DNA of 62,845 nt. It comes from a virus. Location of the stretch: IMG/VR virus record IMGVR_UViG_3300005528_000064, positions 1 through 62,845 of that record. One strand, given 5' to 3'. The notes under the pieces were generated by a model. The model made no database searches and was not told where the DNA came from. It saw nothing but the letters and a program-made list of their open reading frames with translations. Position numbers and translations under genes: made by a program. How positions within the stretch are numbered: position 1 is the stretch's first letter; each line of letters begins with the position of its first letter. Below are positions 18,201 to 45,724 of the stretch, in pieces.

Positions 18201-19019
18201 GTTGCCGAGCACACTTACCTGATGCTCAGTGACAAAGGATATGAAGACGGAGCAAAATTTAGGAAGTCAATGGCAGATGCGCTTCTCAGCGCTGTTGCAA
18301 GCCCGACACCGTTCCCCACGGCTATAAAGCCCGCCATCGAAGTAGCCATCAACTACGACTTCTTCCAGGGTAAACCCTTGATCGGAACCTTTGAGAAGCA
18401 GAAGGACGTAGAGCGGCAATTCCGTGATTCAACTTCGGAGTTGGCGAAGATACTTTCCAATGTGCCGTTGTCCTACAGCTTAGAAAAAGGCAAGTTTGAA
18501 GGGATGTCACCGATTGCCATAGATCACATGATCCGTGGCATGCTGGGTTCGTTCGGTGGCTTGGTTCTGTTTGGGACCAATCAGTTCTTGCACTCTGACC
18601 CTGACGTTCCAAGGCCGGAGATGTCAGCGAACGAGATGCTTGCTGCGCTGCCGGGTACGTCCGGTTTGCTCAAGCGCCCGCAAGAATCTGCCCTGAAGAA
18701 CGACTTCTTCGTACTCCGCGATGCAGTAGAGAAAGCGGCTAACACCTTCAACGACATCAAGACTCGTAGCCCCGAAGGGATTGAAGCGTTCTTGGAAGAC
18801 GAGAAGAACGCCATCCGTCTAGGCATGGCTAAGGGCGTTGACAAAATTAACAGGCACTTGTCAGACATCCGTAGAAGGATGACCATCATCACGAACATGC
18901 CTGAGAGCCAGATGCCTGCTGATGAAAAGGCGCAGAACATCCGAGAACTGAGGGAACTGGAGCGTGAAATTTTGCGCTCAGTGAACGTCAAGGAACTGCG
19001 GGAGATGGCGAAGATTTAG
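12261..19019 (+). CDS. Giant virion protein with zincin motif and LPD38-like C-terminal region
   Basis: 2252 residues, the largest gene. The N-terminus has two copies of LDFSKFGTPV. Hydrophobic Ala/Gly helices follow (about 125-175). Two 59-residue-spaced copies of a KPEP...YPDG...AYI-LPED-Q...RAKLLG unit start near residues 337 and 396. A Pro/Ala linker and a highly charged coiled coil (about 790-1000) come next. A zinc-peptidase motif HELGH is at 1178-1182, with GEWYADQ at 1251-1257 as a possible third-ligand region. The last ~600 residues, including FFYAYLSAQRVAYRVL, resemble the large polyvalent-protein-associated domain LPD38. Such proteins are thought to be injected with the DNA. It converges on, and overlaps by 32 bases, the minus-strand gene at 18988. 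Confidence 0.8.
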   Translation: MALDFSKFGTPVEQTPVLDFSKFGTPVQPPEKQSAFRQIADVPLGIAKGAVQGVRMIADAFGAGSDTSKTIKSAETYLADLMSAQAKNDQQEISRIMKDAEDKGVLDQVKAGIKAFTIAPVDTLSSALGTAAPVIAGALGAKILGAGALATTGVSALTGAGMGAGTIKGSIYEETKNALKEAGASEQDAEARAKLAQEYGGKNLDQILLGTVLGGAAAVGPLEKGGAAILARRILGKTDVTETVAGQAAKGAVRRRLEAGALEAAPEFIQAGQEQVAQNIALQREGFDVPTFRGAVSSATLEGLAGAGLGATVGGGKPAVAPEVPPPEAPPAPPPAALEYKPEPFIQFPDGTVAKRSEVEAYIKTLPEDQQMAMRAKLLGLAPQEAEAPPAEPTKALEFKPEPLIVYPDGSVARSSEVDAYIQSLPEDEQIAARAKLLGMGEVATRVTPEMLRKLGIRGRAPVIQRLSGLELTDPKVTEELTNFASQPYASPEVRGNIFGFLNTIKPVEAPVAPPVEPAAEAPAAPVAEAAVEPSVAEDSELVTPAPVVEAAAPVEPPSRNSEAWRTEGKTPEQLMADKVESVSSELAAQIADEASAQDFSPNELPTAIQQWASDAKIPADDLRLSVIKALDKFDISDARKSQVKKALSPLRAAPAAPTVEAAAPKAEAPTTKPAKAAALRKQPNTVMGSTMLADVSNRLGGLDLSLLSEFSTKFITKRKDKYGRPLTMWRNPMVPGVGTLFRKGGESDYVLIATMLEEAGYLEPGSVERDYKEAGERAKDMIKAALNREEVLTLEQQESQRQTDEEANRQAWLEQQEELKAERDNAAREAGLTPYEGDLLTDEDIDVFAPAKPQTDEQYAAGMRGLGFDETEIADAVQKKQERERAQKTASGRPAEARAVPETGEGTEGLERYTAEEVTRKQEEAEKAAAEEKKAKAAEQERLRKEQQAKEEKARADESVKDFELGKSAEEQMTGMGDLFAESPKREPRQGTQKQLETADGHAKSTGGTVVYQDGDIALLRGFSMLTGQPVYVVTNGDYRAKIDIEGYTGNLVTPAQKADLVKVKQELEAEDKVKFDKAPSIKFTGGLATSANVSPEIAGIVRGWKDLLGLKPNLYITTIDDAVADRNKFTGPHRAIGSAGLDANEAGQVRRLPNGDYYIAFKKSTSKTKMLEVLAHELGHMHEREVFNSADSDTKKKIREEHDKWLMSQQGRSARELVQSLRAKTTGKTTRVEKGMPADQMTPYWKSFGEWYADQVSRWAVTSEKPVSVVEKFFSRLAQALKSFYSKIKNAGYLPNETFVQYLEKTHQPSGHVISTDDGTAQQMLGEVKAAPSGNPGEQAISIVNSLGMGVKPPEPGRFEKAKKILKDAGDNPSLTKESAKKTLTKWLDWFETTVFSSDSAFNNKIRRGIISDFKQNPEVLGMLLEASQSQTVHADALASQFMIDGGLQYNDDLKKWESVKKDDNFVALAKKIEDLAKKYNVTKDEMERIAHTYFVAKRLPGIIKRNEELDAEIKAERATAKPDRKQIEEWESLKVFVSDEQLAMMEPGLSLAKTIPELKEVVDIWQGIRKNNIDVMVNSGLWSPEYANAMWDNMDYVPYYREEQLEEGAGPQEFIRGLQVKSKEFKLKGSGAAVNDVFDNMIRWSQYAMNRAIRAHKATQMIDAALKIEVDGKPMATKVTEQKRGMNIVRAFRDGKQELYDMADPLFVPAFSSIQNVSIPTLTFMAKLANVLRQSVVLYPLFSVAQVPQDSFAAMFSSGLKTQHALKIPYLAVKEFVKTLSKTSQTHNELKRFGVVGVRDFSATVIRDDAEIYAGLKPPKGGWGKTKEFLEHIAMSADNAVRQAVYEASMQQGLKKSEALEKAFEIINFRRRGTSKMLNVMGQTVPFFYAYLSAQRVAYRVLSGVGISPSDRKEALTTLATTSAAVAALSVIYAMANGDDEDYAETPAAIRDRTLTIPGSGGVRIPLRPDFFLFPKIVAEHTYLMLSDKGYEDGAKFRKSMADALLSAVASPTPFPTAIKPAIEVAINYDFFQGKPLIGTFEKQKDVERQFRDSTSELAKILSNVPLSYSLEKGKFEGMSPIAIDHMIRGMLGSFGGLVLFGTNQFLHSDPDVPRPEMSANEMLAALPGTSGLLKRPQESALKNDFFVLRDAVEKAANTFNDIKTRSPEGIEAFLEDEKNAIRLGMAKGVDKINRHLSDIRRRMTIITNMPESQMPADEKAQNIRELRELEREILRSVNVKELREMAKI

Positions 19020-19449
19020 CACGCTTACGGGCCTGCTTCATGTCTTCGTCAACAGCGGCCTTATGTTCTACCGCCTTTCCCTTCCACACATGGTAGATGC
19101 TGATCGCTAATTTTTGGCGACGGCCATCCTCGTTGGTCTTGACCACAAGCCCAGCGTCAACAAGTTTGTTCAGATACCTGCTGAAGTTTGCGGAGTCCAT
19201 ACCGATCTGGTCTGCCATCTCGCGCTGACTGGCTTCAATCTTGTTGTGCCAATCGCAGTTCATGAGAAGCGCCATCCACACGCGCAAAGTGTTGCCGTCA
19301 AATTTACGGGCCAACAAAACTTGCCATGCTTCATTACTGACTGCAAGCCACATTTGGAAACCTACCTTGTGTTGCCTTGGCGTGTAGACCGGGACACCTT
19401 CAACAATCTCTCCAGTGTCAAGGTCAATGGTTGCAAAGTTCCTGCGCAT
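18988..19449 (-). CDS. RepL/MarR-like winged-helix protein under SOS-type boxes
   Basis: 153 residues. The centre (about 35-110) is a winged helix: FDGNTLRVWMALLM, ASQREMADQIGMDSANFSRYLNKLVDAGLVV and a basic wing. It resembles plasmid RepL initiators and MarR-type regulators; which of the two cannot be told by eye. A basic Lys/Ser/Pro tail follows. It is the last gene of the leftward block and converges on the giant virion gene. Its ATG is 8 bases downstream (in transcription direction) of two LexA-like boxes with an overlapping promoter, so it probably has its own damage-inducible transcript. Confidence 0.72.
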   Translation of the reverse strand: MRRNFATIDLDTGEIVEGVPVYTPRQHKVGFQMWLAVSNEAWQVLLARKFDGNTLRVWMALLMNCDWHNKIEASQREMADQIGMDSANFSRYLNKLVDAGLVVKTNEDGRRQKLAISIYHVWKGKAVEHKAAVDEDMKQARKRAKSSPSPAVP

Positions 19450-19457
19450 GTCAAGCC

Positions 19458-19542
19458 CTGTAGGTTTATACAGTGCGCATTGTAGCGGGCTACAGTAGGA
19501 AAGTGCAAGTTTCCCTCTATAACCCTTTTTTTCCCTCTATAT
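19458..19542 (-). promoter_or_regulatory. Leftward promoter with tandem LexA-like boxes
   Basis: Read on the minus strand: a -35-like TTGCAC (19508-19503), an 18-base spacer and a -10 TACAAT (19484-19479). Two SOS-box-like palindromes lie over and after the -10: CTGT-N8-ACAA/TTGT-N8-ACAG at 19480-19495 (7 of 8 conserved bases) and CTGT-N8-ACAG at 19458-19473 (8 of 8), their centres 22 bases apart. Upstream is a direct repeat TTTCCCTCTATA (plus-strand reading) at 19510-19521 and 19530-19541, 20 bases apart, of unknown role. Confidence 0.6.
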
Positions 19543-27168: not shown

Positions 27169-27393
27169 TCAGGGCTTCTCCAACGTCTTGAGCCTGGGCA
27201 TACGCGGATCGACGCGGGGAAGTGTTGACAACACATCCTCCTTCTTTATAGGAGTAGAGGAAAGGCCAACAATTCTTTCCTCCGTGTTGAACCTGTGCAG
27301 GTTTGCACACTGGTAGCGACGGCGGCGCGATCCATCTTTCCTGAGAACCGATTCCAGGACTTCCGTCCATGTTCCGCACTGAGGACATTTCAT
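27169..27393 (-). CDS. Zinc-ribbon protein (NrdR/Ogr-like N-terminus)
   Basis: 74 residues. MKCPQCGTWTEVLES, a basic RRRRYQC turn and HRFNTEE follow the order of the NrdR zinc ribbon (CPxCG...C...RF-T-E), with one Cys of the second pair replaced by His. A transcription-related role as in Ogr/NrdR proteins is possible. It is the last gene of its leftward operon and converges on the terminator at 27137. Confidence 0.68.
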   Translation of the reverse strand: MKCPQCGTWTEVLESVLRKDGSRRRRYQCANLHRFNTEERIVGLSSTPIKKEDVLSTLPRVDPRMPRLKTLEKP

Positions 27394-30843: not shown

Positions 30844-31635
30844 ATGAAAAAACTCAACATCCAATCAATCATCATCGACAAGGGCACCCAGAGCAGGGCT
30901 TCGATCAGCGAGGACACCGTTACCGACTACGCTGAGGCGATGCAAGCGGGCGACGAGTTCCCGCCTGTCATCGCGTTCTTCGACGGGGTTGAGTGTTACT
31001 TGGCCGATGGCTTCCACCGTCTGCATGCCGTCAAGCGCCTGGGCAAAACAAGCATCCAAGCCGATGTGCGGACGGGAACTCTGAGGGATGCCATCCTCTA
31101 TAGCCTGGGCGCGAACCGGGACCACGGCCTGCGTCGGAGCAATGCAGACAAGCGCAAGTGCGTGCAGACCCTGCTGGATGATTTCGAGTGGGGCGACCTA
31201 TCCGTCAACGAGATGGCCCGCATCTGTGGAGTGAGCCCTCAGCTTGTCCTGGCCGTCAAGGCAGAGATGGACGGTGGCGAGAAGGTTTCCACCGTTAAAA
31301 CTAACGCTCCGAAGAAGCCTGCCAAGTTGAACAACGTGGTTGAAGCCCCGTTGGAACCGACAAATTTAACGCCCGAGCGGGACGAAGCGGTTCAAGAACT
31401 GGTGGCCGAGAACCAGCGCCTGAGCGACCGGCTTGCGGTGGAAGCGATGGAAGCAACGCCAGAGGAAAAGGTTGCCGCATCTGAAACCATCGCAGAACTG
31501 CGGGAGCAGATCAGGATTCTGGAGATTGAGAACCAGTCCCTCAAAATTTCACGGGACACCTTCCAGCGGGAGAACGGTGAACTGAAGAAGACCGTGGCAT
31601 CCCTGCAGCGCAAGCTGAAGAAGGAGGAAGTGTGA
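30844..31635 (+). CDS. ParB/Sulfiredoxin-fold DNA-binding protein with coiled coil
   Basis: 263 residues from the ATG at 30844 (a TTG at 30835 is possible). The N-terminal ParB-like domain shows DGFHRLHAVKRLG (Asp55-Gly67), the phosphate-binding box, and SLGANRDHGLRRSNADKR. A helix-turn-helix follows (LSVNEMARICGVSPQLVLAVKAEM). The last ~90 residues are coiled coil. ParB-type proteins bind DNA and CTP; in phages they serve partition, or act as nucleases or regulators. No ParA partner is visible nearby, so partition is not shown. Confidence 0.78.
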   Translation: MKKLNIQSIIIDKGTQSRASISEDTVTDYAEAMQAGDEFPPVIAFFDGVECYLADGFHRLHAVKRLGKTSIQADVRTGTLRDAILYSLGANRDHGLRRSNADKRKCVQTLLDDFEWGDLSVNEMARICGVSPQLVLAVKAEMDGGEKVSTVKTNAPKKPAKLNNVVEAPLEPTNLTPERDEAVQELVAENQRLSDRLAVEAMEATPEEKVAASETIAELREQIRILEIENQSLKISRDTFQRENGELKKTVASLQRKLKKEEV

Positions 31636-35088: not shown

Positions 35089-35280
35089 CTAGTGCTTCCC
35101 AGCACTCAGGGTGGGCATGTCCACCGTGAAGATTTCGGGGTGCTGCATTTCCAGATAGGACAGATGCCCCAAAATTTGCAGGCCGAGCGCCAGGACTTGC
35201 TCATCCCGGCCCACGGCATCTGATCGAATCGTGATCTGGTCACCCTCTTGTACGAGGGTAATTGTGACTAGCGTTGTCAA
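35089..35280 (-). CDS. Hypothetical small protein
   Basis: 63 residues from a TTG at 35280 that overlaps the upstream TGA (TTGA). LVTITLVQEGDQITIRSDAVGRDEQVLALGLQILGHLSYLE suggests a beta hairpin followed by a helix. It converges on the HNH gene. The weak start makes this call moderate. Confidence 0.5.
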   Translation of the reverse strand: MTTLVTITLVQEGDQITIRSDAVGRDEQVLALGLQILGHLSYLEMQHPEIFTVDMPTLSAGKH

Positions 35281-35441
35281 TTGCAAGTCACATCGCACCG
35301 ACGAAGAGCCCCACTTCCGTAGCAGCACTCAGAGCAGTAAACGGTGCGACCGTTCATCGTCATGGTGTAGTACCGGCACGAATAGGCCAGGGCAGCAGTG
35401 GCGAAGAGGGTAGCGGCGAGGAAAGCGACAGTCTTTTTCAT
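35277..35441 (-). CDS. Small secreted Cys-rich protein behind SOS-type boxes
   Basis: 54 residues from the ATG at 35441, with CAGGAG six bases upstream. MKKTVAFLAATLFATAALA is a clear signal peptide with predicted cleavage after Ala19. The mature peptide of 35 residues has six Cys (22, 36, 39, 40, 49, 53), so it probably folds by disulfides in the periplasm. Two strong LexA-like boxes lie upstream. The function is unknown; an envelope-acting or host-interaction role is a guess. Confidence 0.68.
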   Translation of the reverse strand: MKKTVAFLAATLFATAALAYSCRYYTMTMNGRTVYCSECCYGSGALRRCDVTCN

Positions 35442-35504: not shown

Positions 35505-35584
35505 CTGTGAATTTTTACAGTGTGTCTACTACTCCAAAATGGTGGAAGTAGGAAACCGTTCGGCAATACTGTAAATTTTTACAG
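35505..35584 (-). promoter_or_regulatory. Two strong LexA-like boxes
   Basis: CTGTGAATTTTTACAG at 35505-35520 (inside the 22-base palindrome ACACTGT-N8-ACAGTGT) and CTGTAAATTTTTACAG at 35569-35584 (8-base arms around TT). Both fit CTGT-N8-ACAG exactly. The second covers the stop codon of the HNH gene at 35579. On the minus strand a weak -10 TAAAAA lies inside the first box. They are best placed to control the secreted Cys-rich gene at 35277. Confidence 0.68.
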
Positions 35585-36159: not shown

Positions 36160-36684
36160 TTACTCAGCCGAGACAGAAATGCTCCGGCCTTCCTCTGAGT
36201 ATTCAATCTGCATCTTGATCTTCCGCAGATCGTTGAACTTGCGGCGGTTCTCCAGCACTCTCGGGTCAGTACCTACCGCAAAGATATGAGGGTCAATCAT
36301 GTAGACGCCATTGACCACGCGCATGAGCAGGCCGCTTCCGATGAGTTCCCGCGTGGCGTTGTAGATCACTTGGTTCTTCAGGCCGGTGCGCTCCGTGATT
36401 TCCTTACGCTCTACCGGGGTGATGATGACATGGTTCTGATCGTCTCTGACCATCGAACCAAGTTCAATGAACAGAACCATCGCAGACCGAGACAGACCGT
36501 AGAGTCGGCATAGGTCAGCGTAGAACATTTTGGTGAACGTCAGATGCGTAGCACCTTCCTTGCGCGTCACCTCTTTGACAACCTCGGTTGCCCGCAAAAT
36601 TTCGCCCGTCTCGGCGTCAGTTGTCAGCGTCCGCTCCAGGCTACTGTAGACCGCACGGGCTTGCTTGCTCATCACATCACGCAT
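36160..36684 (-). CDS. RepL-like winged-helix replication initiator
   Basis: 174 residues from the ATG at 36684, which has AGGAGG five bases upstream. FTKMFYADLCRLYGLSRSAMVLFIELGSM, ERKEITERTGLKNQVIYNATRELIGSGLLMRVVNGVYMIDPHIFAVG follow the RepL/IncFII-type winged helix, including the conserved NxY-F-G-like end. Five 19-base iterons lie ~90-180 bases upstream, and an extra half site overlaps its -35. It probably starts phage replication at the iterons and represses itself. It is distinct in sequence from the winged-helix protein at 18988. Confidence 0.75.
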   Translation of the reverse strand: MRDVMSKQARAVYSSLERTLTTDAETGEILRATEVVKEVTRKEGATHLTFTKMFYADLCRLYGLSRSAMVLFIELGSMVRDDQNHVIITPVERKEITERTGLKNQVIYNATRELIGSGLLMRVVNGVYMIDPHIFAVGTDPRVLENRRKFNDLRKIKMQIEYSEEGRSISVSAE

Positions 36685-36702
36685 AACTACCTCCTGATCT
36701 GG

Positions 36703-36732
36703 ATGATAGCATCTAACGGAAAACAAGTAAAG
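36703..36732 (-). promoter_or_regulatory. Promoter of the RepL-like gene with iteron half site in the -35
   Basis: Minus strand: -35 TTTACT (36732-36727), 18 bases, -10 TATCAT (36708-36703), then AGGAGG and the ATG at 36684. The -35 region TTTACTTG is the conserved half of the iterons at 36771, which suggests autorepression. Confidence 0.5.
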
Positions 36733-36770
36733 ACCTACTGAAGTCATCTACTCAAAAATGTATACGTTTA

Positions 36771-36868
36771 CTTGCTACGAGTAAACTTACTTGTCACGAG
36801 TAAACTTACTTGCTACGAGTAAAGTTCCTTGTAGTGAGTAAATTTGTTACTCGCTATGAGTAAACGCA
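36771..36868. repeat. Five 19-bp iterons, candidate replication origin
   Basis: Units start at 36771, 36790, 36809, 36828 and 36850; the first four are strictly tandem, the fifth follows after 3 bases. Consensus acttgctacgagtaaactt. Units 1-3 differ by one to three bases, units 4-5 by more. Within each, TTACT...AGTAA forms an inverted repeat; around unit 1 it reaches GTTTACT-N7-AGTAAAC. The region is AT-rich and stands before the RepL-like gene. Confidence 0.75.
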
Positions 36869-37084
36869 CTACTCCCCACATGAGTGACCCCTAGCATTCA
36901 TGCGGGTTCCAGGCCGATTGCTCTTTTCTTCTCTTTGCGTAGCGTAGTGGTGTGCGTAGCTTCTTGGCCAGGGGAATGAGTGATGGGTCAGTCCTCCGCT
37001 ATGGCAGCGCAGCGTCTACCCGTGCGCTCCACCTCTCTGTCGTATCGTGCCCGCTCGGTTTTCGAGAGCAGCGTAGCAGGGGCG
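36869..37084. other. Non-coding stretch between iterons and terminator
   Basis: About 215 bases with no convincing gene on either strand. It contains a pyrimidine-rich run (CTCTTTTCTTCTCTTTGCG near 36922) and CGTAGCGTAGTGGTGTGCGTAG, a short imperfect repeat. It could be part of an origin (duplex-unwinding or primase-loading side), but nothing specific is seen. Confidence 0.4.
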
Positions 37085-37111: not shown

Positions 37112-37471
37112 TCACTTTTTCGCTAGTTCCCTGCCGTGTCTGTGCAGTTCATCTTTTATGTAGGCCAATCCTTTCCTGCCCATGTTGGGGATACGGAGGA
37201 CTCTGTTCTCTGTCATGGAGCACAGTTGGTCAATCGTCCTTACGTCCTCAAAACGCAGGCAGTTCAGAACTCTGCAGGGCAAGTCCAGATCGTCAACCAT
37301 AACGTCAATTTCGGCTTGCGTTTCTTCCTTGGCCTTGAGAAATGCGACTTCTCTCTCGTATTCCTGCAGCATTTTGTAGGCAAGCTGGACGCGGAGGTGG
37401 ACCCCTCCCGTGCTCGCTGGCGCTTGGCCGTGCATCATGGTGAACAGTTGCCAGAGTCGTTCTTCGTTCAT
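37112..37471 (-). CDS. RNA polymerase alpha C-terminal-domain-like protein
   Basis: 119 residues from the ATG at 37471, two bases after the upstream stop. The N-terminal half is helical. Residues about 58-117 (VDDLDLPCRVLNCLRFEDVRT, IDQLCSMTENRVLRIPNMGRKGLAYIKDELHRHGREL) follow the bacterial RpoA C-terminal domain (VDDLELTVRSANCLKAE..., LLKTPNLGKKSL-EIKD-L) in order and spacing. That domain binds UP-element DNA and activators. A free copy could redirect or compete with host transcription. It is the last gene before a strong terminator. Confidence 0.75.
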   Translation of the reverse strand: MNEERLWQLFTMMHGQAPASTGGVHLRVQLAYKMLQEYEREVAFLKAKEETQAEIDVMVDDLDLPCRVLNCLRFEDVRTIDQLCSMTENRVLRIPNMGRKGLAYIKDELHRHGRELAKK

Positions 37472-37472
37472 G

Positions 37473-37724
37473 TCATACCCCAATTTTGTTGAGGAAGTTC
37501 CGCGCCTTGGTCAGCCGTGCGCGGTCCATGCCGACGTCACCATGCTCAAGGATATGAAACGCCAGGGAGTCCACGACAGAGCGCAGATGCTGCTCCAGTT
37601 CATCGCGCTCGGCTCGCAGTTCTTTGAAAGCGATGTTGTCGCGGGCGCGGGCCTGCTCCAGTTCGATCACGCGGTCGATTCCGTTGCGGGCGATATCAAT
37701 TACGCCCTGAACACCAGTTTCCAT
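37473..37724 (-). CDS. Hypothetical coiled-coil protein
   Basis: 83 residues from the ATG at 37724, with CAGGAG six bases upstream. It is helical and charged (DRVIELEQARARDNIAFKELRAERDELEQHLRSV is the kind of heptad pattern seen). The region just upstream (37742-37758) is a truncated copy of the terminator stem at 37085. Function unknown. Confidence 0.6.
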   Translation of the reverse strand: METGVQGVIDIARNGIDRVIELEQARARDNIAFKELRAERDELEQHLRSVVDSLAFHILEHGDVGMDRARLTKARNFLNKIGV

Positions 37725-37759: not shown

Positions 37760-38257
37760 TCACTCCACCTGTGCCACAAGTAGCGATCCATACCTGTCCA
37801 GATAGTTAATCTCTAGACCATGCTTGTCTGCGTAGTCCATGACGAACTGCTCGGCCTTCTCGCCTCCCAGGCGGCGGTACTCCACCCGTTTCTCCACCGG
37901 ATCGCCCCGTGAGTTCTGGCCCACCAGCATGTTGATCGCAACCTCGCCGGGGTTCAGCAGTTCCTCCAGCTCATCTCGTCCTATGGGCTGGCCGTTGTGC
38001 TCTATCGCCCAATAGATCGGCTCAAGGTCCGGGTCATCATCGCGCATGGTGCCGTCGCTAGACCAGCCGTCCACCATTGCAAAGTAGATCGTGTCCACGA
38101 TGCCACCGGGCCAATCCTCCCAATGGTTGTGGTCAATTTCCTCTGAGACTTCCTGAGTCACGCGGGGCAGGATGCTAGTGCGCCATCCCCCATCGTGCCA
38201 TTCCACCGGGGCAGTCACCATCGGATAGTGGTTGTCGTTTATGCGAAGCGTGAACAT
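37760..38257 (-). CDS. Hypothetical early protein
   Basis: 165 residues, acidic. MFTLRINDNHYPMVTAPVEWHDGGW and several Trp/Asp-rich segments (HNHWEDWPGG, DGTMRDDDPDLEP) are followed by a helical C-terminus (KAEQFVMDYADKHGLEINYLD). The ribosome site and the upstream stop are fused in GAGGAGTGACCTATG. No family recognised. Confidence 0.62.
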   Translation of the reverse strand: MFTLRINDNHYPMVTAPVEWHDGGWRTSILPRVTQEVSEEIDHNHWEDWPGGIVDTIYFAMVDGWSSDGTMRDDDPDLEPIYWAIEHNGQPIGRDELEELLNPGEVAINMLVGQNSRGDPVEKRVEYRRLGGEKAEQFVMDYADKHGLEINYLDRYGSLLVAQVE

Positions 38258-42013: not shown

Positions 42014-42130
42014 ATGTATAAACGTACAGTGCGAGTGCTGGTGCGGTGCCGGAGCCCGCCCGCAGTGAGCGAAGCGAGCAGCAGTCTCTTGCATTCCTCA
42101 TCTGTTCCCCTATACTGTATAGAACCCCAG
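42014..42130 (+). promoter_or_regulatory. Candidate late promoter with LexA-like boxes
   Basis: Plus strand: -35 TTGCAT (42089-42094), 16 bases, -10 TATACT (42111-42116). The box TACTGT-N8-CCAGTA (core 42115-42130) overlaps the -10 and differs from the SOS consensus at one conserved base. A second box ATGT-N8-ACAG is at 42014-42029, also one mismatch. The promoter faces the terminase-small-like gene at 42145 and thus the whole late operon. Confidence 0.55.
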
Positions 42131-42144
42131 TAGGACAAACACCT

Positions 42145-42816
42145 ATGAAGCTATCAAGAAAGACTCTAGAGAAAGCAGCTAAGGAACTGCCCCCGAGTGC
42201 TTACCTCGGTAAAGCCGTTTCCGATGGACTCACGACAAAGCAAAGAAACTTCGCACGGGCTGTAGCTATGGGAGCCACTAAAGCAGATGCTTTCAGGGCC
42301 AGCTATGACGCCACCAGTAAGCACACATTGACCCGCCACCCGTACATGCTTATGCGCGACGAAAGAATACAAAAAGAAATCGACGCCTATGCCCTGGCAA
42401 TAGAGGCAGCGAAGCATAGAACCCCTGCCGCTTTGCGTGATCTTGTCATTCAGGGACTAGTGCAAGTGGCCCTAGCAGAAGACACAAAAGACAGTGTACG
42501 GGTGCAAGCATTGAAGACCCTTGGCACAGTAACCGAGGTGGCAGCGTTCACTGAGCGTAAGGAAGTCCGCAGCATTACCAGCAGCGATGATGCGCGAGCC
42601 CGTGTCATGTCTGAGCTTCGCACACTGCTTACCGCACAAGCTCAGGACGCGACCGTCATCGAGGCCGAGGCAGATTCCCTGCTGCGGGAACTGAGCGGGA
42701 CGAGTGAGCCTAGCGTTAATTTTAACGGCGACGCCACGGACAACGAGGTGGCGCAGGACGCAGACCCACCCACCGGGCACCCCCCCGATGCAGCAGCAGG
42801 AGTCCCGCTGCCTTGA
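42145..42816 (+). CDS. Terminase small subunit-like protein
   Basis: 223 residues from the ATG at 42145. SDGLTTKQRNFARAVAMGATKADAFRASYDA, then HPYMLMRDERIQKEIDAYA and a helical region with SVRVQALKTLGTVTEVAAFTERKEV, follow the layout of small terminase subunits, which bind DNA and present it to the large subunit. The C-terminus is acidic and Pro-rich. Its DNA carries one of the TTAA palindromes (42714). It is the first gene of the late operon, with three small genes between it and TerL. Confidence 0.7.
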   Translation: MKLSRKTLEKAAKELPPSAYLGKAVSDGLTTKQRNFARAVAMGATKADAFRASYDATSKHTLTRHPYMLMRDERIQKEIDAYALAIEAAKHRTPAALRDLVIQGLVQVALAEDTKDSVRVQALKTLGTVTEVAAFTERKEVRSITSSDDARARVMSELRTLLTAQAQDATVIEAEADSLLRELSGTSEPSVNFNGDATDNEVAQDADPPTGHPPDAAAGVPLP

Positions 42817-43139
42817 ACATACTATTCCACTCAAACTGCCCCTACCTCGCACCGATTCCACTCAAACGACTCTATGCCCCAATGAACGCCGTTAAATTTA
42901 ACGCTCCCCTGCCATTAAATTTAACGCTAGCACCAGACCCCACCCCCTAAATCTGGCGACACCCCCCCGGTCAGTCTTTCTACAAAAAGTGGTGGGGGGA
43001 AGTACCAAAAATTTTGGGACTAAATTTTGGTGCCGTTAAATTTAACGGATGACATAAACTGGTTTAACAAACGTGGCTAAGTTGTTGATTTGTAACGATT
43101 TTTGTTAGGCTGCCTTACCGGAAGCAAAAGGGCCGAAGA
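42817..43139 (+). other. Non-coding stretch with TTAAATTTAA palindromes
   Basis: About 320 bases with no convincing gene. It holds CGTTAAATTTAACG (42890-42903), a variant ATTAAATTTAACG (42914-42926) and the perfect 16-base palindrome CCGTTAAATTTAACGG (43033-43048). Two CATTCCACTCAAAC-like direct repeats lie near 42825-42868 (ATTCCACTCAAAC twice). A leader element GCTAAGTTGTTGATTT (43077-43092) precedes the next gene. Confidence 0.6.
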
Positions 43140-44006: not shown

Positions 44007-44237
44007 ATGGGGATGACTGAGGCTCAGAAGGAAGTGTTTTTGGCTATAGATGTGTGGTGGTGCCGGTTTGGGTACGGCCCGAGTCTGCGGAACATTTGTG
44101 AGTTGAGGGGTAAGCCTGGGCTTGGGAGCACGAAGAAGATCGTGGATAGGTTGGTGAAGCTGGGTGCTCTCAAGAGGGTTGAGGGGATGGGAAGGTCTGT
44201 GCGGCCGACGTACATCAGCTTTAGGAATATGGAATGA
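44007..44237 (+). CDS. Stand-alone LexA-type winged-helix DNA-binding protein
   Basis: 76 residues from the ATG at 44007, chosen because GGAGGAGG lies eight bases upstream; an ATG at 43926 would add 27 residues and overlap the previous gene. MTEAQKEVFLAIDVWWCRFGYGPSLRNICE, GSTKKIVDRLVKLGALKRVEG-GRSVRP matches the LexA N-terminal domain in order (TARQQEVFDLIRDHI...G-PPT-AEIA, SP-AAEEHLKALARKG, SRGIR). The S24 protease half and the Ala-Gly cleavage site are absent. Its stop overlaps the TerL ATG. It may bind the LexA-like boxes of this genome, or serve as a small-terminase-like DNA binder. Confidence 0.78.
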   Translation: MGMTEAQKEVFLAIDVWWCRFGYGPSLRNICELRGKPGLGSTKKIVDRLVKLGALKRVEGMGRSVRPTYISFRNME

Positions 44238-45724
44238 AGTTGGATGATCTAGTGGCGAGTCTGTCTCCTGCGGATCAGGAGAAGCTGTTACAGCAGGTAC
44301 AAGATTACAAGGATGCTGTGGACAGGGAGAAGTGTCAGAAGAGCTTCATGGCGTACGTAAAGAAGATGTGGCCGGGGTTTATTCATGGCCGACACCATGC
44401 GGTGATGGCTAAGAAGTTTGAGGAGATCGCGGAAGGTAAGTTGAAGAGGCTGTGTATCTCTTTGCCACCGAGGCACAGCAAGAGCGAGATGGGATCGTTC
44501 TTGTTCCCGGCGTGGTTTCTTGGCCGGTTTCCAAATAAAAAAATCATTCAAGCATCCAACACGGCAGAGCTTGCTGTAAGTTTTGGACGCAAAGTTAGAA
44601 ACTTAGTGCTATCAGATGAGTACCAAAAAATCTTTCCTGGCGTAACTTTGCGGCAAGACTCCAAAGCAGCGGGCCGCTGGAGCACAAGCCAAGGGGGGGA
44701 GTCATTTAGTATCGGCGTTGGCGGCACGATGACTGGCCGTGGCGCTGATCTGATGATAATTGATGATCCGCACAACGAGGGCGAGGCCGCGCTTGCCGCG
44801 TTTCAGCCGGAGATTTACGACAAGTCTTACGAGTGGTTTACTTCTGGTCCCCGTCAGCGTCTCCAGCCTGGAGGGGCTATTGTCATCATCGCCACTAGGT
44901 GGTCCAAGAGAGACTTGATTGGACGCGTGCTCAAGGCGGCGGGCGAGCTAGGAAAAGAAGAAGAGTGGGAAGTCATTGAACTCCCGGCGATCATGCCTTC
45001 GGGTAAACCCTTATGGCCTGAGTTTTGGTCGCTGGAGGAACTGTCTGCGCTAAGGGACGAACTCCCACCGGGTAAGTGGAACGCTCAGTACCAGCAAAAT
45101 CCCACCGCCGAAGAAGGTGCTATTGTTAAACGGGAGTGGTGGAAGATTTGGGAGAAGGAGAAGCCTCCTTCATGTGAGTTCATCATCCAGTCTTGGGACA
45201 CTGCCTTTACTAAGGTTGAGCGAAACGACTACTCCGCTTGTACTACGTGGGGTGTGTTCCACATGAACGAAGATGAAAAGGATGTCAATATCATCTTGTT
45301 GGACTGTTTTCAGAAGCGGATGGAGTTCCCTGAGCTTAAAGAAAAGGCACTTGCTCACTATAGAGAGTGGGAGCCTGACTCGTTTATTGTGGAAGCCAAG
45401 GCCGCAGGCGCTCCGTTGATCTTTGAACTGCGGGCGATGGGCATTCCGGTGTCTGAATACACCCCAAGCAGGGGGAATGACAAGTTTGTCCGTATCAATT
45501 CTGTGGCAGACCTGTTCCAATCAGGTAAAGTCTGGGCTCCAGACACCCGGTGGGCTAGAGAACTCATCGAAAACATGGCCGCTTTTCCGAACGCACCCCA
45601 CGACGACGATGTGGACAGTGCCGTACAAGCGTTGATCCGCTTCCGGCAGGGTGGTTTCCTGCGTCTACAGACAGACGAACAGGACGAAATGCGGTCTTTC
45701 AAGCGCAAAGTAGCGTTTTACTGA
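44234..45724 (+). CDS. terL: Terminase large subunit
   Basis: 496 residues. ATPase: Walker A-like PPRHSKSE (78-85) and Walker B LMIIDDPH (173-180). A coupling motif IIATRWS follows. Nuclease: SWDTAF (Asp322), VEAKAAG (Glu387) and the HDDDVDS cluster (457-461). The nuclease has the RNase H-like order expected of packaging motors that cut concatemers and pump DNA into the prohead. It is translationally coupled to the LexA-like gene. Confidence 0.95.
   Translation: MKLDDLVASLSPADQEKLLQQVQDYKDAVDREKCQKSFMAYVKKMWPGFIHGRHHAVMAKKFEEIAEGKLKRLCISLPPRHSKSEMGSFLFPAWFLGRFPNKKIIQASNTAELAVSFGRKVRNLVLSDEYQKIFPGVTLRQDSKAAGRWSTSQGGESFSIGVGGTMTGRGADLMIIDDPHNEGEAALAAFQPEIYDKSYEWFTSGPRQRLQPGGAIVIIATRWSKRDLIGRVLKAAGELGKEEEWEVIELPAIMPSGKPLWPEFWSLEELSALRDELPPGKWNAQYQQNPTAEEGAIVKREWWKIWEKEKPPSCEFIIQSWDTAFTKVERNDYSACTTWGVFHMNEDEKDVNIILLDCFQKRMEFPELKEKALAHYREWEPDSFIVEAKAAGAPLIFELRAMGIPVSEYTPSRGNDKFVRINSVADLFQSGKVWAPDTRWARELIENMAAFPNAPHDDDVDSAVQALIRFRQGGFLRLQTDEQDEMRSFKRKVAFY

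Follow-up and report, generated by a model that had tools for sequence, protein, structure and literature searches.

LexA-type boxes at a winged-helix gene, a small secreted-protein operon and the terminase promoter of an uncultured tailed phage

A Set of LexA-Type Boxes in a Phage Genome

In an uncultured phage, the two LexA-type boxes that precede a winged-helix gene appear from the sequence to belong to a wider set, which includes the promoter of the terminase genes and which the original prediction had missed. The window, that is the whole 62,845-base stretch analysed (an IMG/VR virus record, 54.5% GC), carries such boxes at three places: upstream of the winged-helix gene, upstream of a small secreted-protein operon and at the late/terminase promoter (Table 1), an early and late arrangement comparable to that of the phage GIL01. 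CTGT-N8-ACAG is the LexA motif of beta- and gammaproteobacteria, and the boxes fit this consensus. They are probably operators for the LexA of the host, which would gate an SOS-dependent programme like that of GIL01.

The proteins matched in the window include a terminase large subunit, a portal, a helicase, a primase, a Sak-like annealing protein and an exonuclease and therefore indicate a tailed phage, which we presume, from the kind of collection, to belong to a freshwater group. The viral collection contains 370 terminase relatives, the best 80 of which were kept. As their records are mostly fragments, genes that seem absent from them are weak evidence. A host search via the terminase relatives returned 25 loci, all on MAG contigs of many phyla, and gave no host. 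The window and 20 relatives gave no match to Peptidase_S24, the domain used as the sign of a self-cleaving repressor of the CI/LexA type; neither a tyrosine integrase (PF00589) nor a tRNA was found in the window, and no lysogen was seen.

Table 1. Features of the window. Box matches are counted over the CTGT and ACAG ends.
Feature	Position	Strand	Remarks
Winged-helix protein, 153 aa	18988..19449	-	MarR_2; weak matches to O-like replication initiators (PHROGs)
LexA-type box 1 CTGTAGGTTTATACAG	19458..19473	.	CTGT-N8-ACAG dyad, 8/8
-10-like TACAAT	19479..19484	-	by sequence; not confirmed by consensus scan
LexA-type box 2 TTGTAGCGGGCTACAG	19480..19495	.	7/8; overlaps -10
-35-like TTGCAC	19503..19508	-	18-nt spacer; 3/6 by eye
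Tandem TATAGAGGGAAA	19510..19541 (copies 19510-19521, 19530-19541)	-	upstream edge of cassette common to four promoters
Small Cys-rich ORF	35277..35441	-	signal-peptide-like start MKKTVAFLAATLFATAALA...; no PHROG match
LexA-type box CTGTGAATTTTTACAG	35505..35520	.	8/8; ~79 nt before small secreted ORF
LexA-type box CTGTAAATTTTTACAG	35569..35584	.	8/8; none found in G010 at this location
RepL-type gene	36160-36747		RepL match
LexA-type box ATGTATAAACGTACAG	42014..42029	.	7/8; ~100 bp before terminase promoter; 8/8 in L025, L031
LexA-type box CTGTATAGAACCCCAG	42115..42130	.	7/8; overlaps terminase -10 TATACT (42111-42116); 8/8 in L013, L014, L061, L041
Terminase small subunit-like	42145..42816	+	first gene of packaging block; weak domain match
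Mini-LexA, 103 aa	43926..44237	+	LexA DNA-binding domain without protease domain; directly before terminase large subunit
Terminase large subunit	44234..45724	+	

Boxes at the Three Places

The pair of boxes upstream of the winged-helix gene (8/8 and 7/8, centres 22 bp apart) is present as originally predicted. Of the -10 and start region of the gene, said to be covered by the pair, box 2 overlaps the -10-like TACAAT and box 1 covers the expected transcription start, but the start codon is left uncovered. Box 1, located 24 nt before the ATG, also extends over the leader and into the ribosome-binding region. A promoter scan gave no site at 9/12 upstream of the gene, so that the putative promoter is weak by consensus. 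Cooperative binding to the pair, for which the spacing had been considered suitable, was not taken as given, LexA being described as binding neighbouring boxes of GIL01 independently in the excerpts of the GIL01 study consulted (PMC4551915). When the 95-bp gap that holds the pair was subjected to 20,000 dinucleotide shuffles, any 8/8 box arose in 0.115% of them and an 8/8 box with a second one of at least 7/8 in none (0/20,000).

At the secreted-protein operon, a box lies at -78 to -80 ahead of every variant of the small ORF that was found; weaker 7/8 matches at greater distances upstream were left out. In the relative G021, no copy of this ORF was seen, and the box lies before the following gene, a relative of 35089-35328.

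Two sites lie near the terminase genes. The one located about 100 bp before the promoter reads ATGTATAAACGTACAG in 30 loci including the window, CTGTGTTTTCATACAG in L025 and CTGTATGAACGTACAG in L031. The other starts within the -10 itself (TATACTGT..., with the variant CTGTAAAAAACTACAG in L041); among 45 loci anchored on this promoter, 43 have a match of at least 7/8 and four reach 8/8, the anchor itself fixing the left CTGT. In a more distant group, the terminase promoter region was without a box by eye in 14 loci, and in three members of this wider group (L068, L069 and L072) a partial match, judged by eye to be 6/8, lies at a similar distance from the terminase. A TGTTCC-like element, a possible activator site, is found just upstream of the terminase -10 (42104-42109 in the window) and is conserved in many phages of both groups.

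The motif was compared with that of bacterial lexA genes, using 24 lexA-type loci of the order to which a Rhodocyclaceae MAG belongs. A script run on the 200 bp upstream of these betaproteobacterial genes found an 8/8 box in 9 of the 24 and at least 7/8 in 14; with two edge cases (L177 and L181), whose 8/8 box sits at the edge of the gene and outside the reach of the script, these counts become 11/24 and 16/24. The lexA box of L190, read on one strand (CTGTATAAACGTACAG), is one base away from two of the phage sites, which may be a coincidence.

A LexA-Like Protein Encoded by the Phage

The mini-LexA belongs to PHROG 3502, to which no function is assigned, and is present in most of the relatives checked; tblastn gave no match in named phages. 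Its LexA_DNA_bind score is just below the cut-off (20.7 against 23.7 bits), and this domain is matched by 11 of 12 members of its family (best E 7.4e-8). The predicted fold (pLDDT 76) has LexA structures as its best matches, namely 3jso (E 2.1e-3) and 1lea (TM-score 0.83 by length of 1lea). Judging from this model, it would be a truncated LexA of the same kind as gp6 of GIL01.

The main alternative to the host LexA is that mini-LexA itself binds the boxes, as a repressor or an activator encoded by the phage, their likeness to host boxes then being due to common ancestry. The domain and fold matches argue for such a role, as does the fact that the gene belongs to the block that follows a boxed promoter; the Foldseek E-values, just above 0.001, do not favour it. 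The recognition helix also differs: at the positions corresponding to S39, N41, A42, E44 and E45 of E. coli LexA, which we take to be base contacts, mini-LexA has G, G, S, K and K, whereas the LexAs of the Burkholderiales order mostly have the pattern S-x-N-A-A-E-E/D. Furthermore, the family also occurs in phages whose terminase promoter is without a box. Because of these two observations, we think that mini-LexA would read a sequence other than the box, as gp6 does, and binding of the boxes by this protein seems unlikely. By the same analogy with gp6, mini-LexA is a candidate second regulator of the late genes. As for the protein encoded by 27169-27393, annotated as a transcriptional regulator in PHROGs, it is an unlikely box binder, being a zinc ribbon of the NrdR/Ogr type.

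The Winged-Helix Gene and Its Cassette

The product of 18988-19449 had been described as a regulator of RepL/MarR type. The MarR half of this description stands, since MarR_2 scores above its Pfam threshold (29.8 against 27 bits; MarR PF01047 remains below its own), but RepL PF05732 falls short of the one set for it (16.3 against 20.3 bits) and the RepL-type gene of the window is another one (Table 1). The AlphaFold2 model (mean pLDDT 71) has only loose ArsR/MarR-type fold matches. Given these results and the weak O-like matches, the product can safely be called a winged-helix DNA-binding protein, which could be either a regulator or a replication initiator. The two winged-helix genes of the window are not close paralogues (BLASTP E 11). 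Searches for the gene in named phages by blastn and tblastn found nothing, nor did a single-sequence scan of viral sequences, and a profile scan recovered only three loci that were already known.

The slot occupied by this gene was compared in seven relative loci, found via relatives of the terminal part of the giant gene next to it. In three of them (L160, L161 and L164), the slot holds a winged-helix gene, whose product is 27-41% identical to that of the window. An 8/8 box precedes the gene in all four loci (window included), at a distance of 24 or 56 nt from the ATG: CTGTATAAACCTACAG at -24 in the window, CTGTATGTCCATACAG at -24 in L164, at the same position as in the window with a different spacer, and CTGTATGCACTTACAG at -56 in both L160 and L161, whose promoters are identical and count as one promoter sequence. 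None of the four loci with another gene in the slot has an 8/8 box there (best matches 6, 7, 7 and 6 of 8). The LexA-type boxes proposed upstream of the winged-helix gene are conserved with it and repeated at other promoters of the phage. The four winged-helix promoters share about 40 upstream bases, including the tandem TATAGAGGGAAA (two copies in the whole window against 0.07 expected), and then diverge; for this reason, the box, the promoter and the winged-helix gene look like one exchangeable cassette. By eye, the slot is occupied by a PAPS-reductase-like gene in L159 (4522-5394) and L162 (4637-5593).

Small winged-helix regulators often autoregulate, and the box and the gene travel together at the slot. 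The boxes at 19458-19495 could thus be autoregulatory operators of the winged-helix protein rather than sites for LexA. However, G021 has the box at other promoters, its slot is filled by a PAPS-reductase-like gene and the winged-helix gene was not found in its 51 kb, which may be incomplete. Furthermore, the recognition-helix region has strongly diverged between the homologues while the box ends have not changed. Autoregulation is therefore improbable.

Conservation and Abundance of the Boxes

The case for the boxes rests on their position and conservation and not on their abundance. For the four site types, the mean pairwise difference of the CTGT/ACAG ends and of the spacer is 0.062/0.521, 0/0.362, 0.109/0.241 and 0.125/0.400, respectively, from site lists entered by hand; the fourth comparison uses five hand-picked variants, including those of L025 and L031, and leaves out loosely anchored sequences that are not the site. 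Thus, the ends are kept in relatives while the spacer drifts, a pattern that suggests LexA-type boxes.

The whole window contains four 8/8 sites, against a mean of 1.27 after shuffling, and at least four were obtained in 7 of 200 shuffles, so that the excess over chance is only moderate. An 8/8 site paired with one of at least 7/8 appeared anywhere in the window in 11 of 200 shuffles. In 38 relatives, the raw forward-strand matches of the box are fewer than those of a reversed control pattern (18 against 42). Abundance was consequently dropped as evidence. The 8/8 site at 37210 was left out because it lies inside the ORF 37112-37483. That the boxes are chance palindromes without any regulator, as the background of about 1.3 8/8 sites per shuffled window and this intragenic site might suggest, is already disfavoured and very improbable, given ends conserved beside drifting spacers at four site types and the repeated placement of the boxes on upstream regions.

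A Putative SOS-Gated Programme

Operators for the host LexA thus remain the preferred reading. In an undamaged cell, the host LexA would sit on the -10 and start region and silence the winged-helix gene. RecA-driven cleavage of LexA upon DNA damage would free this gene and, as the same operator is found at the terminase promoter and the small secreted-protein operon, packaging and late functions may follow the same signal. Since neither a protease repressor of the CI/LexA type nor a tyrosine integrase was detected, the host LexA itself could be the damage sensor of the phage, resulting in an SOS-gated lytic switch or a lytic delay. The outcome could be lysogeny, a plasmid-like state or simply a later lysis. 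Several points count against this reading: box 2 and both terminase-region boxes are only 7/8, the winged-helix promoter is weak by consensus, raw box counts fall short of the reversed control, the phage has a LexA-fold protein that could bind and the wider group has boxless terminase promoters.

Beta/gammaproteobacterial-type LexA boxes are known on promoters of the Vibrio cholerae phage CTX and of 186 and SPC32H, two phages with antirepressors under LexA control. All of them also have a repressor of their own, which is supplemented by LexA or countered by such an antirepressor, whereas no Peptidase_S24-type repressor was detected in the window. The nearest comparison is GIL01, a temperate, extrachromosomal phage of Bacillus thuringiensis. 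According to the excerpts consulted, LexA guards its early and late promoters, acting with the LexA-binding co-repressor gp7 at P1 and alongside gp6 at P3 (PMC6182141, PMC4551915), and gp6 is a truncated LexA that activates the late promoter and reads a sequence other than that of LexA (PMC6182141). As far as these excerpts go, both phages have host-LexA-type boxes at several promoters including a late one and a small protein reduced to the DNA-binding domain of LexA, and no CI-type repressor was detected here. However, GIL01 belongs to the tectiviruses and has a Gram-positive host, whose LexA uses another motif and has been proven to bind, whereas the phage described here is tailed and its CTGT-N8-ACAG boxes are known from the sequence. 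In the same way, the CtrA-box phages borrow sites of a host regulator on their promoters, a strategy termed lytic deferment in the part of the report consulted (PMC9437464), though with another regulator and in another host group.

A broader picture can be proposed with some hesitation, as it is rather less probable than the operators themselves. Uncultured tailed phages of fresh water, forming a widespread group without a repressor of their own, might let the host LexA gate the terminase/late promoter, the operon of the small secreted protein and an accessory winged-helix regulator, with mini-LexA as a second late regulator, the design of GIL01 having been reached independently in Gram-negative hosts. 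If so, common aquatic phages would read host DNA damage directly via LexA at their packaging promoter and not via a repressor of their own, and SOS-linked lysis timing would become testable in phages otherwise taken as strictly lytic. It would also be a second, independent case of a phage pairing the host LexA with its own truncated LexA. A literature search among open-licence papers found no prior report of LexA boxes in this phage group.

Other Features of the Window

Together with several 19-bp iteron-like repeats TTACTTGCTACGAGTAAAC just upstream of it, the RepL-type gene takes up 36160-36884, and an HNH gene adjoins. Among the window, G010, G021, G034 and G036, this gene with its repeats is found in the window only; it looks like a plasmid-type replicon.

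The window also has a ParB-like match in PHROGs. A recurrent palindrome, GCCGTTAAATTTAACG, is located around and inside the terminase small subunit gene (42712-42928 and 43032-43048), with a less exact copy in the ParB-like gene (31291-31373), and is a possible operator or partition site. Finally, several small genes on the minus strand are preceded by a common sequence for ribosome binding and the start codon, seen as CATAGGTCACTCCTC-like blocks repeated at 38255, 38592 and 40503.
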